Source of the DNA: Opitutia bacterium
GTDB taxonomy: Bacteria > Verrucomicrobiota > Verrucomicrobiia > Opitutales > Opitutaceae
Length of the DNA: 64,000 nt
Direction: 5' to 3'
NCBI GenBank assembly: GCA_016217595.1
Contig: JACRHS010000015.1
Span: forward strand, 1 to 64,000
Under the pieces are notes generated by a model that searched no databases, was not told the origin of the DNA, and saw nothing but the letters and a program-made list of their open reading frames with translations. Positions 9,731-45,701 of the stretch are shown in pieces. Within the stretch, counting starts at the first letter, position 1; each line of letters begins with the position of its first letter. The position numbers were made by a program, and so were the translations under genes.

Positions 9731-12700
9731 TCAGAAGCGCGCTTTCACACCGGCGCTGAAAGCGATACCTGTGCGCTGCGCCGTCCATGGACTTTCGAAG
9801 TCAAAGGCCTTGACCACGCGCTCGAAATTCCAGCCATTCGTCAGATTGAAGACATCGAGATAGACTGAATAGATTCGGTTGATGGTATATTCAGTCTTCA
9901 GATCGAACTGAAGCCGGGCACGGTTGTAATAATCGAAGGTGTGGATGCCGATGATGCCGCCGCTGGTTCGTCCGTAAATGCTGTTGGTTTCAGCCGGTGC
10001 GGAACCCGAGACGCGGATGGAGCCCATGTAGGTTTCGCCGCGATAGTTGGCCAGCAGGCGCAACGACAGGCCGTACCCCTTGAAGGTGAGGCCGGCATTC
10101 ATCGTGCGCGGCGTGAAGTTGGCCAGCTGCGTAACGGTGGTCACGCCACCGAAATCTCCCTTGGTCTGGAGCAGGGTGATGTTGGCGTAGGTGCCCAAGC
10201 CGCGCAGGATCCCGGGGAGGAACGTGTACTGCTGGCTATAGTTCAACTCGATGCCACGCACATGCGCGCCGCCGACATTACTGGTCTTGTTCCAAGTGTA
10301 GCCGGCATAGTCGCCATTGAAACCGTTATCCGGGCCTTCCGGCACGACCGAGGAAATGGTGCGGGTGTAATTGCTGATTTCCTTCAGGAAAACCGTGGCC
10401 GACAACGTACCGACTGGCTCGAAATAATACTCCACGCCGGCATCGAAATTGTCCGAGGTGTAGGGCTTCAGTTCCACGTTGTTCGCCGTCAGCGTGCGGG
10501 CAACGTCGTTGGCCGTGATGCCAGGAGTGTAATTGGCGGCGCCCGGACGGGAAATCGACACGTTGTAACTCGCCCGTGCCTGGAAGTTCTTGTTGAACTG
10601 ATACACAAAGTGAATGCCCGGGAAAACATTGGTGTATTCCGCCTTGCGCGTAACCCAACCGGTAAAGGTTGAGCGCGCCCGCGCCCGGTTTTCTTCCACC
10701 GAGAGGGATTCATTGGCGTTATTGGTGGCATCGGTCGGCTTGCGTTTGAAGCCGGCGCCGATCGCCTCCGTTTCTTCCACGCGCAAACCGCCCAAGATGC
10801 GCAGCCTGTTGAGCTTCACTTGCGACTGCACATACGCGGAAGAAATCTGTTCCCACGTTTGGACGTGGCCAGCCAAGGCGTCGGACTGGCTGTTCCAGAC
10901 CTGCGCCATCGTCTGCCTGAAGTTGGCCGGATTTTTCCAGAGATCACCGGGCAAACCGGTCGTGGGAATCTGCAACATTGGGAATGGACCGTAACGGCCT
11001 TCACCAAAGGTCGCATTGTACGCCACGTACGGCGCGATGCCGCCGGTGGTGGGTCCGTTCCAGGTGTACACGTCGACGAAGCGATCAGACTCTTTCTTTT
11101 CCATACTGCGCTTGACGCCGACCTTGATGTAAGCGGGAACGATCGCATCAAAGTCCTTTTGGAAATCGGCCTTAATGTTACGCGTCGTCGAGGGCACGTT
11201 GAAGTGGATGATGCGGGACGCGCCATTGGCTGCCACCGGCGCCGACACGTTGTAATTGGCCGGGTCGCTCCAATTCGGGCCGCCGACTTGTGTGACCTTG
11301 GGCAACCAGCGGTCCTGGCCGCGCCGATCGATCTGGAACGCCACACCCGTCACCTGCGCGTGCACTTCGTTGATGGCCGGATAGGTGGAAATGGTCTCAG
11401 AGAAGCTGCCGTCGATGTTGAACTTGGCCGAGCCCGAGAAGAGCTTCTGCTCGTAACCGGTGGCGAAGGTGGCCGACTCCGAGAAGCGACCGTACAACGT
11501 CGAGTGCAGATCCACGGTCCCGACCGGCTTGGTCGTGGTCAGATTCCACGTGCTGCCCGGCTCGAAGGTGGTGACATTCGCCGGCGCTGTCAGTTGCCAG
11601 CGCATGTAGGAAGGCCGCGCCTTCTTCTCGTACTTGGAGGTATTGTAGCTCGATTTGAAATAAACGATGGCATCCTTGTTGATCTTGTAGTCGGCATTGA
11701 ACGTCATGCCGGTGACATAGCTGGGATCGCCTGAACCGGACCAGTGCCCTTCATTCCACGCTGTTGGCAGCGGATTCTTCGGATCGGCCGCAGCAATAAA
11801 GTAATGCCCATACGCCGTTGCCAGGAACGGACCCGCCTCGTGAATCGTGCCGCTGGAGGCGGTCACGTTAATCTGGGCGAGCAGGCCCAGATTATTTTTA
11901 CCGCCGAGCACGCTGAGCACGTCGGAATACGAAACACTGAACAAATCCAGCTTGGGACGATCGCGACCGGGCAGACTCTTGTGTTCGCCGTTGTCCGCAA
12001 ACTTGGTGCCCACGGTCACCATGATGTTGCGGCCGGGTGCGCGGTCAAAGGCCCGCTTGGTTTTCAAATTCAGATAACCGGAGATGGCGTTGCCATCCAT
12101 GTCCGGCAAAGGGGCCTTGATCAACTCCACCGATTCCAAATTACCGGTGGCCACCTGCCCCAGGTAGACATATTTGCCACCGACGGTCTGACCGTCGCTC
12201 ACCGGCATGGTATTGCCGTCGAGCATCATGGTGCTGAACGACTGATTCAAACCGCGGATGTAGATCGCGCCAGTCTCGCCGCCACCGCTCACATCGACCG
12301 CGACGCCTGCCATGCGCTGGATCAACTCACCCACCGAGGAGGCGGGATTGCCGAACGCGTCGATGGCTGTGACGGTTTTGGAATTCATCGCTTCGCGTTG
12401 CCGCATGATGGCGGCCGCCGATCCTTCCAGGACGCCCTTCACGATGAACGGCTCCAGGCTGTAGATCTCGGTCGTCAACGCGATGTCGCTCTGCTGCATC
12501 TGCCCGGCCTGCACTGTCACCGGAACCCGTTTGGTGGTCAGACCCGAGTAGCTGACAACCAACGTGTGATTGCCGCTCGGCAGCGAAAGGCGGAAGCCGC
12601 CCGTCTCATTGCTGACGGTCGCGATCGTGGAGCCATCGACTTGGATGACCGCGCCTTGCAGGTAATCCTTGGTGCCTTCGTTGGAAATCTGGCCGATGAC

Positions 12701-39108: not shown

Positions 39109-39199
39109 CAGTCCGGGCGTAGTTTTACGTGAGATTTAAGCATTGGCGCAGGTGCATCTGCTGCCAAGATGCCGCCATTGCTTTTGCCTCAATGTTATC

Positions 39200-39805
39200 A
39201 TGACCCCGCGCTCCCTCACGTTCTCGGAATATAAGACTCTTGTCGAACAGTCCCCCATTCTGATTTGGCGGGCCGACCTGACGATGGGCTGCGACTATTT
39301 TAACGAGCGCTGGCTCGCCTTCACCGGGCGCACCATGGAACAGGAATTTGGCAACGGCTGGGCGGTGGGTGTCCATGCCGACGATCTCGACCGCTGCCTC
39401 CAGATTTACACCGACTCCTTTGCCGCCCGCAAAGTTTTCACGATGGAGTACCGCCTACGCCGACACGACGGAGCGTTCCGTTGGATCAGCGACCACGGCG
39501 AACCCTTCTACGACGAAAAGGGCCAGTTTGCCGGTTACATCGGCAGCTGCGTCGATGTGACCGAGCGGGTTGAGGCGCAGGACGCCTTGGTGGCCGCGCA
39601 CGAAGCCGAGGTGAAAACCTTGCATGGCCTGCTCCCCATCTGCTCCGCGTGCAAAAAAATCCGCGACAAACAGGGGCGGTGGACCCAGATCGAGACCTAC
39701 ATCAAGCAACGCTCGGAGGCGGATTTCACCCATGGCATCTGCCCCGACTGCGCCAAGGTCTACTACCCCGATGCCGATCTGACCGGGCACGACACCGGCC
39801 GGTAA
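39200..39805 (+). CDS. PAS-domain protein with C-terminal double-CxxC module
   Basis: A 201-residue soluble protein. A PAS/PAC sensor domain covers ~10-125 (VEQSPILIWRADL ... YRLRRHDGAFRWISDHGEPF). A short helix (~125-142) leads to a C-terminal module with CSAC (148-151), KKIRDKQGRW and CPDC (181-184). The paired cysteines could hold a metal ion. No kinase, cyclase or output domain is present, so signal passage must occur through partners. The start MTPRSL at 39200 is preferred over 39143. Neighbours dapB and ruvA give no hint of function. Confidence 0.78.
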   Translation: MTPRSLTFSEYKTLVEQSPILIWRADLTMGCDYFNERWLAFTGRTMEQEFGNGWAVGVHADDLDRCLQIYTDSFAARKVFTMEYRLRRHDGAFRWISDHGEPFYDEKGQFAGYIGSCVDVTERVEAQDALVAAHEAEVKTLHGLLPICSACKKIRDKQGRWTQIETYIKQRSEADFTHGICPDCAKVYYPDADLTGHDTGR

Positions 39806-39890: not shown

Positions 39891-40502
39891 ATGATCGTCT
39901 CGCTGCAAGGCACGCTCGTCTCCGCCACCCCGTTGCACGCCATCATCGAAACCGGCGGCCTCGGCTACGAGGTGCACATTCCGGTGACCACCGCGGAAAA
40001 GCTGCCCGCCGCCGGCGCGCAGGTGAAGTTGCACACCCACGCCGTGTACCGCGAAGACGCGCAGACGCTCTACGGTTTCGCCACCATCGCCGAGCGCGAT
40101 TTCTTCCGCCTGCTCATCGAGAACGTCACCGGCATCGGCCCGAAAAGCGCGCTCACCATCATGAGCAAACTGTCGTTGCCGCTGCTCGAAGGCGCGATCC
40201 GCTCCGGCGATATCGCCACGCTCGCGAAATGCCCCGGCATCGGCAAAAAAACCGCCGAGCGCCTCGTGGTGGAGTTGAAAAACAAGGTCGGCGGCGTGGG
40301 CCTGTCCGGCGCCATCGACGCCGGCACCGGTGGCGCCGAGTCGTCCGGCAGCACCGGCGATACGCGCCAACGCGACGCCGTGGCCGCCCTGATGGCGCTC
40401 GGTTACAAAGCCGCCGACGCCGATCAGGCGATCCGCCGCGCCGCCCTTGCGCTCGGCGCCACCGCGACCACCGAGCAGTTGATCAAAAAAGCGCTGAGCT
40501 GA
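39891..40502 (+). CDS. ruvA: Holliday junction branch migration protein RuvA
   Basis: DNA-binding subunit of the RuvAB helicase that processes recombination junctions. The 203-residue protein has an N-terminal OB fold, tandem helix-hairpin-helix motifs (VTGIGPKSALTI and CPGIGKKTAERLV) and a C-terminal domain III (AVAALMALGYKAADADQAI). Its last ~50 bases occur again at 43032-43080. No ruvB or ruvC is in the window. Confidence 0.93.
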   Translation: MIVSLQGTLVSATPLHAIIETGGLGYEVHIPVTTAEKLPAAGAQVKLHTHAVYREDAQTLYGFATIAERDFFRLLIENVTGIGPKSALTIMSKLSLPLLEGAIRSGDIATLAKCPGIGKKTAERLVVELKNKVGGVGLSGAIDAGTGGAESSGSTGDTRQRDAVAALMALGYKAADADQAIRRAALALGATATTEQLIKKALS

Positions 40503-40503
40503 G
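40454..40503 (+). repeat. Direct repeat, copy 1 (3' end of ruvA)
   Basis: These 50 bases are the functional end of ruvA, including its stop codon. They recur with the same orientation at 43032-43080, differing by one base in an A-run (six here, five there). Identity begins at CGGCGCCACC and ends at CTGAGCTGAG in both copies. Confidence 0.9.
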
Positions 40504-40561
40504 GCGGTCTTCGCCCTCCATTGGCGTCGAAACTTCGCCCGCAGCAACGTCCGCAAGCCTC

Positions 40562-41302
40562 TCAAACCGCGGCGGCGGCCGACGTCTTTGCACAGGGCTG
40601 ATTCAGCACTCGGTAGAGGCGAACGAAGAGGCAGGCATACCCGATGATGATGATCGCGATCCACGCCTTGGGCGCCAGCCAGTGCTGCGACAGCCGATGG
40701 AGATTGAAACCGACCATGTCGTGCAGGAAGTGCCAGCTCATGGCGACGAAGAGCCAGCGAATCTGCGAACGGACGAAGCAGAGCATCACCACCCCGGAGA
40801 AGCAGGCGTGCATGAACAAACCGACGGTGAGGCGCTCGCCGGCATTATACATTTTTGCGCCGGCTCCGAGCGCCAGCGCGGCTTTGCACTGTTTCAAGAC
40901 CGCAGGATCCGAGATTGCGGCGGGCAGGTATTTCACGACCGCGTAGATCAGGGCCAAGGTGAGCCCGACGATCACCGTTTCCATGCCATGATGGCCGAGC
41001 GCATACATCGTGCTCGCACGCCCGTTGCGGTTGCCCTGGAACGCGCCGCACCGGCGGAAGATGACGTAGCGCGCCGACTCTTCGCAAAAGCCGGCTGAGA
41101 GGGACACGAACAAAGCATAGAGAAACGATCCCTCGGCGAGGCCGAAGCCCTTGGTCGCGATGGCGGCCAGGATCGTCATGACAACCCAAGCGACAAAGAA
41201 AGCGCCGAATCCGAGCAGGAAAACGGTGAAGCGTTGCCGGAGAATTTTCGCACCGGCGAGTCCGAGCAGCAGCGGGCCGAGAAAGTAAACCAGATAGTCC
41301 AT
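40562..41302 (-). CDS. YhfC/PrsW-like intramembrane metalloprotease
   Basis: A 246-residue integral membrane protein with about seven hydrophobic segments. Putative metal-binding and catalytic residues are placed as in the CPBP/PrsW/YhfC superfamily: the EE pair at Glu74-Glu75 in GFCEESARY, His104-His105 with Glu108 in GHHGMET, His165 in FMHACFSG, and His191/His194-Asp195 in SWHFLHDM. PrsW of Bacillus cuts the anti-sigma factor RsiW, so the sigma gene 24 bases upstream is a natural candidate partner. Proteolysis is inferred from motifs only. Confidence 0.75.
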   Translation of the reverse strand: MDYLVYFLGPLLLGLAGAKILRQRFTVFLLGFGAFFVAWVVMTILAAIATKGFGLAEGSFLYALFVSLSAGFCEESARYVIFRRCGAFQGNRNGRASTMYALGHHGMETVIVGLTLALIYAVVKYLPAAISDPAVLKQCKAALALGAGAKMYNAGERLTVGLFMHACFSGVVMLCFVRSQIRWLFVAMSWHFLHDMVGFNLHRLSQHWLAPKAWIAIIIIGYACLFVRLYRVLNQPCAKTSAAAAV

Positions 41303-41326
41303 GGTGGGAACGTGGCGCGGTCGCCA

Positions 41327-42983
41327 TCAGGGGGTGGGCGGCGTTCCACGCGGTCGCGTTTGGCGCAGCCATCGAGCGCGGAAGCAATGGCCGGCGACGA
41401 GCGCTAGCGCCGGCAACCAGACGAGGCTGAACAGCGCTTTGCCCGCCCGGCTGCGCAGGTCGAGCCAGGGGTGCTCGGCGAAGAACAATTGCGCGGCCGC
41501 ATCGTTGGCATGCCGTGCTGCGGCGTGGACGCCGCAGGCGAATTCGCGCGCGATGGCATATCTGCCCTCGGCGGCCAGCCACCCGAAGGAGAAAGCGCCG
41601 GTGGCGACGAAACCCACCGCGACGCCTCCCATGGCAAAGGCGCCGATCGCCAGCCCGCCCCACGCCAGAAAGCCCAGGCTCACAGCCCCGATCGAGACGA
41701 GGCCGGCAGAGAGTCCGCCGACACTCACCGCGCCGACCGCCACGCCGCCGTAAGCAAACAACACCCCCAAAAGCGTAGTTGCCGATCGCGATCCAGCCCA
41801 GCGCCGGCCGCACGGCTTCGTTACGCCGTGGAAAAAGGCTGACGTGAACCAAGGGCAGCCCGAGCAGCGTCCAGCGGCTGCGGTATTCCTTGGGCCACCC
41901 CAAGAGGTCTCCGGGCATCTGCGTTGACGTCCCGGGGTGAAGCTCGCGCCGCAACTGCTGCTGCGTGCGCTGCAGTCGTAGCGCGAGAATCACCACGCAG
42001 ACAACATCGGCCACCAACAGCGCAAGCCACAGGAACATGACCTCCGGGCTTAATCCGCCGTGCGCTTTGGCCATGAGGCTTAACGGAATGCTGGCAATCG
42101 TGAACAGCACGGTCCCTGCGGCTACCAGGAGGAAATACCGTTTCACCAGCGCTCGTTCCCGCGGGGTCCGCGCGTCAGCCAGCGAAGCACGCACGCCGAT
42201 CCAAGCCGCGAGGAGGCAGAGCAGCGGACCGATCGCGACATTGAGTGCCAGAAGAAATTTTCCGCCCAAGGTGGCGGCGCCGGTCTTCATCGCGACGCCG
42301 CCCGCGCCGCCTGCGGTCGCCATGCCTGACGCCGCAAATAACGGCAGCGCGCCCATCACACTGAGCGTGAATGCCGGGCCGGGAGCGGTCTGCTCCAACG
42401 AGCCTTCGACAAACGCGACGACCTGCGCGTGCAGTAGTTTGCGCCCGCGCGAGAGCCGCTGCTTGACCGCATCCTCGCTCAATTCGAGGTCGCGCGCAAC
42501 CCGCTCAATCGAACGATGCTCGCGATAGAAAAGAATCAATGGCTCCCGATACGTTTCCGGCACGCGCTCCAGGGCCTGCCATAGAATCGCCTGATGCTCG
42601 CGCGCAATGACCGCGTCGGAAGGCCCTGGTCCGACCGCCGGCATGTTGGCGGCGAGTTCGAGTTCCCCCGCGCCATGGGTCAGATCGCGCTTGAGGCAGC
42701 GGCGCCGATTGTTGCTCAGGTTACGCGCGATGCCGCAAAGCCAGGATCGTAACTTCGCCGGCTCCCGGAGATCGCGCAAGTGCTGCCATGCCCTGACGAA
42801 CGTCTCCTGGGCAAGATCCTCGCTGCGGGCGACGTCGCCCGTCGCGTTATAGGCGAGCGAGCAAACCAGCGTTTGATACCGGGCCACGATCGCGCCAAAC
42901 GCAGTCCGGTCGCCTGCCGCGCTGCGGCCCACCAATTCCGCATCGGTCACTTCATCTGGCACCATCGTAGCGTTGGTTTGCAT
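41327..42983 (-). pseudogene. ECF sigma factor with C-terminal membrane and pentapeptide-repeat domains, frameshifted
   Basis: The start at 42983 has an excellent ribosome-binding site (AGGAG, five bases upstream). Sigma region 2 is at ~25-95 (SEDLAQETFVRAW) and region 4 at ~130-185 (LELSEDAVKQRLSRGRKLL). Four predicted transmembrane helices follow at ~204-222, 243-264, 283-305 and 315-337. Then comes a repeat of about 12-14 five-residue units, G-x-[VLF]-[AS]-x. The reading frame breaks inside the repeat at a run of five C on the plus strand (41764-41768). With one base fewer the gene reads as 551 residues to the stop at 41327. As given, translation would continue out of frame across the protease gene. 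The cause could be mutation, slippage or a sequencing error. Confidence 0.75.
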
Positions 42984-43031
42984 GTTATCTCCTATGTGGT
43001 CAATCCGCCCGCACAGGTGACAAATGGAAAC

Positions 43032-43080
43032 CGGCGCCACCGCGACCACCGAGCAGTTGATCAAAAAGCGCTGAGCTGAG
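43032..43080 (+). repeat. Direct repeat, copy 2 (duplicate ruvA 3' end)
   Basis: A 49-base near-identical copy of the end of ruvA, with five instead of six A in the A-run, so its ruvA frame would end early. It lies just upstream of the sigma gene's leader and is not part of any gene. The remaining sequence to 43223 shows no other recognisable element. Confidence 0.9.
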
Positions 43081-43223: not shown

Positions 43224-45701
43224 ATGACCGCCAGCCTGCATGGCGTACGCATAGCTTGCTTCTTTCCGTGGAAGTCGTTCGAGCCTTCCGGTGCTTGGAG
43301 CCGCTTCACTTGTTTGTGGCAATTTCTCCACAACGAAGGGGCCGAAATCACCCTCCCCTTCATCGAGCGCGGCAATGATGCCAGCTTGCACGGCATCACT
43401 GTCCGCAATTTGGGCGACTACGCGACTTACCTCGATGCCGCCATTTTCAATCCCATGGTGGAAGCGATGAAGGCCGCGCCGGATCTTCGCGATGCCACCG
43501 ACCAGGAAATACTGTTTCTCCTGATGTTCGACCCGGCCACTCATCTGAAGAACCCCAAACTCGGTCCGTGGCTCGACGATATCATCCGGCAGCAGGATCT
43601 GGTCACGTGTGACTACCCCATGTACACCCCGCTGCTTTCCACCTACTGCAAAAAGTGGAACAAGCCGCTTGTGCTCAGCTGCCTTGATATCCTGCACGAG
43701 TTGCACGCCACCAGCCCCAAGCGCAAGCAGCGCCTGAAGCAGCTGGAAATTCAAGCGATGGGAATGGCCGATGCCCGGGTCTATTGCAATGACCGTGAGC
43801 GCGCGGCCTTCGCCGCCCTGGGACTCGACGGCATCACCGTGCTCAACACCGGCGATGCGCTGGCCGTCACCCCGGGCCAGGAGGACAAATGCCGCGAAGA
43901 GATCCGCTCCTTCCTCCAGCTGAAAACTCCGCAGTACTGCCTCTTTGTGGGCGGCCGGCACCTGCCGAACATCGAAGCCGCCGCGAGTGTGCGGCAGCTC
44001 GCCAAGACGATGCCCGAGCTGTCCTTTGTCGTCGCCGGCAACTGCGTGGCCAAAACGGTCGAAAATAATTTCCACGCCATCGGTGCAGTGACAGACAGAT
44101 ATCTCGACACGTTGCACCGCGGCGCACTGGCGGTACTCGTACCCCTCCTCAGCGGCACGGGCATCTCAGTGAAACTGTTTCACGCCTTTACCTACGGCAA
44201 ACCGGTGGTCGCGACCCCCGTCGGTGCGCGCGGCTACGCTCTCACCCATGGCAAAGAGCTGCTCATCGTCCCCACGCCACAGGAATTTCCCGCCGCCCTC
44301 CGGCGCCTGCGCGGCGAACCAGCCCTGCGCCAACAGCTCGGCGAAGCGGCGCGCGCCTTCGCCGTGGCGCTCGATTATCGCACCCACTTCCAACCCTACC
44401 GCGATATCGTTTTACAGCTCCTACATCGCTCACCATCCGCGGCCGCCAAGCGCCAGCGCGCCCTCGTCTTCATCGACAACAACCTCACCGACCGCATCGG
44501 CCACCACTTCAACTACGCCCTTTCGCTCAAAGCTGAATGCGCCGCGCAAGGTCACGCTTTCGTCGCCCTGATCAAACGCGGCGCGTTGCCCGATGTGGTG
44601 GAGGAACTCTCGGCGGTGGATGCCTTCTCGTTCGGGATTCATGAGGAAGCGCCCGACAACCCCTACCCGCCACAGTGGGGCACACTGCGCGCCAACTACG
44701 ATTTCCTCCTCGCCAACGACCGGTTCTCCCGCGAGCTCGCCACCAGCCTCGCAGTGCAAGCCCGGCCCGGCGACCTCGTGTTCCTGCCCAACGCCACGCC
44801 GCGCCAGATCCTCGGCCTCGCCCTGTTGCTGCTGCGCAGTCCGCTCTACCGCACAATGCATTACGTGCTGTTGCTGCGTTATTCGGTGTTCTACGCCATC
44901 GGTCCTGTCGCCGAGCGCAAACTCACCCTCGATAAAGGCATCGCCGAGAAATACGCCATCGCGCTCGGCAACCTGCCCTCCATCGATCCCGAAGGCCGAA
45001 TCCGCCTCGCCACCGATAGCGAAGAACTCGCCAAAGAGTACGCCAACTTCACCAAGCTGCCCATCGAGGTGCTGCCCATCCCCCATACCCTGCACGCCGC
45101 GTCGCCGATGACGCCTGCGATCCCGCCCAAGAATCCGAAAAAATGCCGGCTCGTGTATCTCGGCGACGCCCGCGAGGAAAAAGGATTCGAGCTACTGCCG
45201 GCCGTGCTTCGTGCCAGCCGAGAAAATCCGGCGTTCGCCGCCACCGAACTCGTGTTCCAGGCTTACATCAGCAGCCATTACCACCAGTCGATGAACCAGT
45301 ACATCGACGAGCTCGCGCGGCATAAATTCTCTCACCTGCACCTGTTGCGCGGTTCGCTCAAAACCGACGACTACCATGCGCTGCTCACCAGTGCCGACAT
45401 CGTGCTCATTCCCTACGACACGCACACGTATCGCGCCCGCACCTCCGGCTCCTTTGTCGAGGCAATCTGTGCCGACAAGCCTGTGATCGTGCCTCGCAAC
45501 TCCTGGATGAGTGCGCAACTCGGCGAGTCCGGCGCCGGGGTAACGTTTGTTTCGGGCAACACCCAAGATTTCGTGCGCGCCGTGCAAACCGTCGTCGCCG
45601 ACCTGCCCCGCTACGCCGCCGCCGCCGCGGCGCTGGGACAGAAATTCCGCGCTTACCACAACCCCGCCAATTTCCTCCAGCGGCTCATGCACGCCCCCTA
45701 A
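43224..45701 (+). CDS. Tandem glycosyltransferase (two GT4-like halves)
   Basis: An 825-residue cytoplasmic protein. The N-terminal half (~1-400) is a GT-B fold enzyme with YCLFVGGRHLPNIEAA and LVPLLSGTGISVKLFHAFTY, GT4-like features for nucleotide-sugar binding. The second half (~410-825) restarts with RALVFIDNNL and ends with a GT4-like donor domain: RLVYLGDAREEKGFELLP and then SADIVLIPYDTHTYRARTSG. The two halves are not close copies. It may add two sugars in succession to a surface polysaccharide. Next to it, convergently, is a polysaccharide lyase gene. No other sugar-assembly genes are near. Confidence 0.8.
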   Translation: MTASLHGVRIACFFPWKSFEPSGAWSRFTCLWQFLHNEGAEITLPFIERGNDASLHGITVRNLGDYATYLDAAIFNPMVEAMKAAPDLRDATDQEILFLLMFDPATHLKNPKLGPWLDDIIRQQDLVTCDYPMYTPLLSTYCKKWNKPLVLSCLDILHELHATSPKRKQRLKQLEIQAMGMADARVYCNDRERAAFAALGLDGITVLNTGDALAVTPGQEDKCREEIRSFLQLKTPQYCLFVGGRHLPNIEAAASVRQLAKTMPELSFVVAGNCVAKTVENNFHAIGAVTDRYLDTLHRGALAVLVPLLSGTGISVKLFHAFTYGKPVVATPVGARGYALTHGKELLIVPTPQEFPAALRRLRGEPALRQQLGEAARAFAVALDYRTHFQPYRDIVLQLLHRSPSAAAKRQRALVFIDNNLTDRIGHHFNYALSLKAECAAQGHAFVALIKRGALPDVVEELSAVDAFSFGIHEEAPDNPYPPQWGTLRANYDFLLANDRFSRELATSLAVQARPGDLVFLPNATPRQILGLALLLLRSPLYRTMHYVLLLRYSVFYAIGPVAERKLTLDKGIAEKYAIALGNLPSIDPEGRIRLATDSEELAKEYANFTKLPIEVLPIPHTLHAASPMTPAIPPKNPKKCRLVYLGDAREEKGFELLPAVLRASRENPAFAATELVFQAYISSHYHQSMNQYIDELARHKFSHLHLLRGSLKTDDYHALLTSADIVLIPYDTHTYRARTSGSFVEAICADKPVIVPRNSWMSAQLGESGAGVTFVSGNTQDFVRAVQTVVADLPRYAAAAAALGQKFRAYHNPANFLQRLMHAP

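Follow-up and report, generated by a model that had tools for sequence, protein, structure and literature searches.

How did the genes for an ECF sigma factor and a membrane protease come to lie between two copies of the ruvA 3' end, and do the two genes travel as a mobile regulatory switch? The locus lies in the window, i.e., bases 1-64000 of the 88.6-kb contig C6 of an Opitutaceae bacterium MAG (3.59 Mb in 32 contigs, 68% complete), from which all data on the block and the repeat pair come. RuvA and the proteins encoded by neighboring genes have their best matches in Opitutaceae. For comparison, we used 252 Opitutaceae genomes, the ruvA loci of 80 relatives, and three congeners; the nearest relatives share ~77-80% DNA identity with this genome, and none is at strain level. 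The features of the locus are as follows.

39891..40502, plus strand: ruvA, intact, ending in ...IKKALS and the stop codon, with RuvA_N, HHH_5, and RuvA_C above the Pfam cut-offs
40454..40503, plus strand: repeat copy 1, 50 nt, comprising the final 46 coding nt of ruvA, the stop codon, and 1 nt
40504..43031, no strand: the block between the copies, 2528 bp
40562..41302, minus strand: gene for a YhfC-family intramembrane metalloprotease (PF10086), based on Pfam profile and motifs
41330..42983, minus strand: ECF sigma gene with regions 2 and 4, no region 3, and a membrane C-terminal extension
42996..43022, minus strand: predicted autoregulatory ECF promoter, TGTCACC-N14-GACCAC
43032..43080, plus strand: repeat copy 2, 49 nt, a free ruvA 3' end with one A fewer
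43224..45701, plus strand: gene for a two-domain glycosyltransferase, the right-hand neighbor, which adjoins ruvA in no relative

The ruvA-end repeat pair is real and far above chance (self-match E ~1e-19). As in the original prediction, the last 50 bases of ruvA recur in direct orientation ~2.58 kb downstream (2578 bp from start to start) with one A-run difference, which pairwise comparison resolved as A6 in copy 1 versus A5 in copy 2; the longest exact run shared by the copies is 36 nt. Also in agreement with that prediction, only the sigma and protease genes lie between the copies, both opposite to ruvA, and copy 1 completes ruvA by covering its stop codon (40500-40502, with the repeat boundary 1 nt beyond), while copy 2 is a loose 3' end. 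The core 26-mer of the repeat, allowing up to 3 mismatches, occurs in this 68% complete MAG at two sites, copies 1 and 2. Neither a tRNA nor an Rfam RNA was found at the repeats, and a hairpin or terminator was rejected, as folding was no better than that of shuffles.

To gauge how unusual such a pair is, we drew the background from samples comprising 449 kb of the own genome and 1.6 Mb of relatives. Requiring a length of ≥40 bp, an identity of ≥95%, and a distance of 0.8-6 kb, we identified five pairs of close direct repeats at three places in the 1.6 Mb. With slightly looser limits (≥35 bp, ≥93%), the 449 kb contained two pairs, one being the ruvA-end pair and the other belonging to a genuine three-copy repeat family. 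Close repeats of this size are therefore uncommon yet not unheard of in Opitutaceae, and short repeats flanking small inserts are not rare in genomes of this kind.

The block encodes an ECF sigma factor with a fused regulatory extension, as judged from its domains: Sigma70_r2, Sigma70_r4_2, and TIGR02937 all scored above cut-off, and the extension, in which several membrane segments are predicted, also carries a Gly-rich repeat. A one-base frameshift, absent from the description in the original prediction, falls within the C-terminal extension at a G5/C5 run (~41763-41770), where the homologs are uninterrupted; it may represent either real decay or a sequencing error. Long homologs (E ≤1e-30, own genome included) are present in 64 of the 252 Opitutaceae genomes; the three congeners have none. 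These homologs are free-standing genes in unrelated places with varying neighbors. The ECF sigma factors ECF48, ECF52, ECF53, and IutY have fused membrane C-terminal extensions, and proteolytic activation has been demonstrated or suggested for them (PMC8999054). The block sigma resembles these proteins in that a long extension containing membrane segments follows ECF regions 2 and 4, a likeness of architecture and not a group assignment. It differs from them in that no zinc-finger anti-sigma domain was detected, in its several membrane segments and Gly-rich repeat, and in its occurrence in Opitutaceae rather than Actinobacteria.

Upstream of the sigma gene, the predicted promoter belongs to a conserved type. 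A TGTCA-type box precedes 37 of 39 sigma homologs, in most cases at a distance of 30-50 bp from the start, and is often followed at a fixed spacing by a (G/C)(G/C)CAC-like box. Because TGTCACC-N14-GRSCAC has a single match in the 68% complete MAG, at the sigma gene, the predicted regulon of this sigma factor in that genome is its own unit, and we predict from these motifs that the promoter is autoregulated. The -35 box of ECF41 promoters is TGTCACA (PMC3426412). Both systems have a TGTCAC -35 box ahead of the unit that encodes the sigma factor itself, whereas the -10 box here is GRSCAC-like instead of CGTC and the extension is membrane-borne instead of SnoaL-like.

The protease scored 37.3 bits against PF10086 (gathering cut-off, 24.2), has the motifs EESAR, HGME, and HFLHD, which are of the EExxR, HxME, and HxxxD types, and contains five predicted membrane segments. 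Genes of this family are present in 2 of the 252 Opitutaceae genomes; the second gene, 57% identical, has a VOC-domain gene on one side and a hydrolase gene on the other, with no sigma gene beside it, and no homolog was found in the three congeners. PrsW acts in sigma-factor release. The block protease is similar to PrsW/YhfC proteases in carrying PF10086 with the expected motifs and in being encoded beside a sigma gene; in contrast to those systems, a separate anti-sigma substrate was not found and the pairing with a sigma factor is not conserved. In the proposed working of the cargo, the C-terminus would anchor the sigma factor in the membrane, transcription by this factor would be limited to its own unit, and proteolysis may set the factor free. 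The adjacent protease may make this cut, although the pairing of the two genes is not conserved.

The block opens 9 bp from the promoter -35 box, which lies that far from the edge of copy 2, and closes 58 bp past the protease stop codon; thus, it consists of one whole transcription unit and little else. A foreign origin by composition was rejected, since base composition and tetranucleotides are unremarkable and continuous across the block.

The gene order upstream of ruvA (31-40.5 kb) is common to dozens of relatives, while downstream of ruvA we found nothing in common with their gene order. In ~62 of the 80 relatives, an anti-sigma/ECF pair faces ruvA ~1-1.5 kb behind it. In the present genome, this pair is located apart from ruvA, on contig C9 at ~48.7-49.4 kb (L214). 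The congeners also have the pair, and other genes lie behind their ruvA where this region is readable. The separation of the pair from ruvA, also in congeners, suggests that rearrangement had already broken the gene order at the ruvA end by the time the block arrived. We rejected the block sigma as a homolog of the ancestral ECF pair, as it belongs to a different ECF family (~30%) and the pair is on another contig. Between dapB and ruvA lies a PAS-domain gene (39143-39805) that is near ruvA in none of the 80 relatives; no direct repeats flanking this gene were found.

Based on these observations, our preferred explanation, held tentatively and at slightly less than even confidence, is that the region behind ruvA received a complete transcription unit in a single, fairly recent, one-off event that duplicated the ruvA end. 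The inserted unit would have comprised its own ECF promoter, the gene for the membrane-tethered ECF sigma, and the membrane protease gene, and the duplication would have covered the final 50 nt of ruvA. Copy 1, or a restored equivalent, would complete ruvA, and copy 2 would mark where ruvA formerly met the downstream DNA, so that the joined site before insertion would read ruvA...GCTGAG followed directly by CTGCTCCCGCGG, with the block absent. The right flank of copy 2 has TGAGCTG in common with the ruvA end of the congener G003, while the flank of copy 1 lacks it; as a short sequence match, this weakly favors copy 2 as the old junction. The event was probably recent, as 49 of 50 positions are identical although copy 2 is under no coding constraint. 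The route may have been one-off recombination or repair by a staggered break, a template switch, or fragment capture with target fill-in.

The insertion envisaged in the original prediction is supported indirectly, namely by the unique repeat pair, which ends at the ruvA stop, by the whole-unit block, by the free-standing sigma homologs, by the congeners lacking both sigma and protease, by synteny that is kept up to ruvA and lost after it, and by the location of the ancestral anti-sigma/ECF neighbor on another contig. The empty site that the prediction proposed as a check did not come to light. Three points count against a single insertion: there is no empty site from a close strain, rearrangement behind ruvA had already affected the whole genus, and the evidence is from one MAG. 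Against a one-off event counts that the repeat ends at most 1 nt from the ruvA stop, where a random break would rarely fall and a gene-restoring integrase often would. Nevertheless, a dedicated element appears less likely than one-off recombination or repair. A real insertion would show that a housekeeping gene can, without harm, receive behind it a complete autoregulated sigma unit that is independent of host promoters. The sigma family itself (membrane-tethered, self-promoting, and without a fixed partner) looks little studied, and its spread could be followed.

Among the alternatives, the best surviving one, which we nonetheless consider unlikely, is a site-specific element, i.e., a recombinase-less, CIME-like passenger at the ruvA 3' end that was moved by a tyrosine recombinase in trans, the two copies being attL and attR. 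The 50-bp direct repeats, which restore ruvA and end at its stop codon, fit this explanation, and like CIMEs and other elements at gene 3' ends, the block is bounded by direct repeats tens of bp long, of which one restores the gene end and the other is free, with no recombinase inside. The genome moreover encodes an integron-type integrase and XerC/XerD-type recombinases, and about one-third of it is missing. However, the only tyrosine recombinases in the 68% complete MAG are of the XerC/XerD type and IntI, and none (PF00589) is on contig C6, which for this recombinase class agrees with the statement in the original prediction that no integrase is present. The 9 bp between copy 2 and the sigma -35 box are too few for arm sites there, the repeat core has no close match elsewhere in the genome, and integron recombination does not produce 50-bp gene-end repeats. 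Unlike CIMEs, the ruvA block lacks a recombination or transfer module and does not recur in the 80 relatives, and its cargo has not been seen as a unit elsewhere. The 80 RuvA loci yielded no shared or empty attachment site, and neither a cognate integrase in cis nor another element at the same site was found.

A transposon with target-site duplication was set aside, because the block contains no transposase ORF and no terminal inverted repeat, its TIR score being no better than that of shuffles. Carriage by a plasmid, phage, or virus was rejected: the block had no phage match, the protease had no plasmid or viral-contig match, and no long sigma was found in viral contigs, while plasmid matches were to ordinary ECF domains only; the lack of relevant matches also speaks against the site-specific element. 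An integron cassette was rejected as well, given that no attC candidate is near the block. The genome's integron integrase (TIGR02249, 376 bits), which has a long N-terminal extension, is encoded on contig C19 at ~113.6 kb (L192 829-2142); no attC candidates were found in the 40 kb scanned around it.

According to the original prediction, sigma and protease would travel together as a switch if the block is a real element, and empty ruvA sites in relatives and blocks flanked by other repeats could reveal this. A recurring sigma-plus-protease element is not supported. The ruvA-end repeat was found downstream of ruvA, within a stretch of up to 8 kb, in none of the 80 relatives, the nearest of which are only ~77-80% identical; on this basis, recurrent integration at ruvA was rejected, and the site-specific element also loses ground. 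No sigma homolog examined had the 3' end of a neighbor repeated across the gene, and sigma and protease did not occur together elsewhere among the 252 Opitutaceae genomes.

The main caution is an assembly or library artefact, in which a chimeric join added the second ruvA end at 43032; we consider it improbable. The MAG is only 68% complete, and two single-base homopolymer differences in 2.6 kb, in the A-run and at the G-run frameshift of the sigma gene, are compatible with such an error. Yet the longest exact stretch of 36 nt is short for a graph mis-join, the conserved genes on the left are intact, composition is continuous through the block, and the 449 kb of assembly contain just one other such pair, which is a genuine repeat family.

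Somewhat more doubtful still is a Campbell-type event, in which a small circle carrying the ruvA end and the block was integrated by one homologous crossover via the 50 bp. This event yields exactly one direct repeat per side with nearly identical copies, but it requires a donor with the block already beside the ruvA end, and the 80 relatives include none. A free ruvA end would also have arisen at this spot if the ruvA end, protease, and sigma had been duplicated in tandem and the second copies of protease and sigma had then been lost. This course is very improbable, as it needs two events with a deletion ending exactly at the repeat edge and no remnant of a second block is present from 43081 onward.

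We give equally little credence to a broader speculation, in which genes for membrane-tethered ECF sigmas would be minimal mobile regulatory cassettes inserting at the 3' ends of genes with the aid of a recombinase in trans, the copy at ruvA being fresh and that on contig 63 of G018 older. The latter, 57% identical, is the only repeat-flanked sigma homolog elsewhere among those examined, and its repeats belong to a dispersed ~215-bp family and are not a gene end. On this contig (L183-L185), diverged ~215-bp repeats near 1, 3974, 5773, 7153, 10264, 12236, 15182, 20605, and 23646 lie between single small genes, including those for an RDD membrane protein and VOC-domain proteins, and two strong attC-like hairpins are located at 11590 and 20030.

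The other close repeats that we read were of different kinds. At locus L023 (G022), a 46-bp direct repeat (GCATAAGGGGTCAATCTTATATCC..., at 582-627 and 2425-2470) has one copy at the end of a LuxR-type gene and the other past an opposite-strand gene encoding 561 aa; its motif recalls the ends of Y1/REP-type transposase elements. At L081 (105-3470), in the congener G003, a 1121-aa ORF contains many in-frame copies of the palindromic element TTAACAGGGATGGAGGGGATG and its complement, insertions reminiscent of the protein-coding palindromic elements of Rickettsia. In the own genome, contig C2 carries at 20.1-22.5 kb (L195 136-2490) three ~80-bp repeat copies with small ORFs between them; this array also contains a 197-bp, 92% repeat and is cassette-like and degenerate, with no attC consensus.
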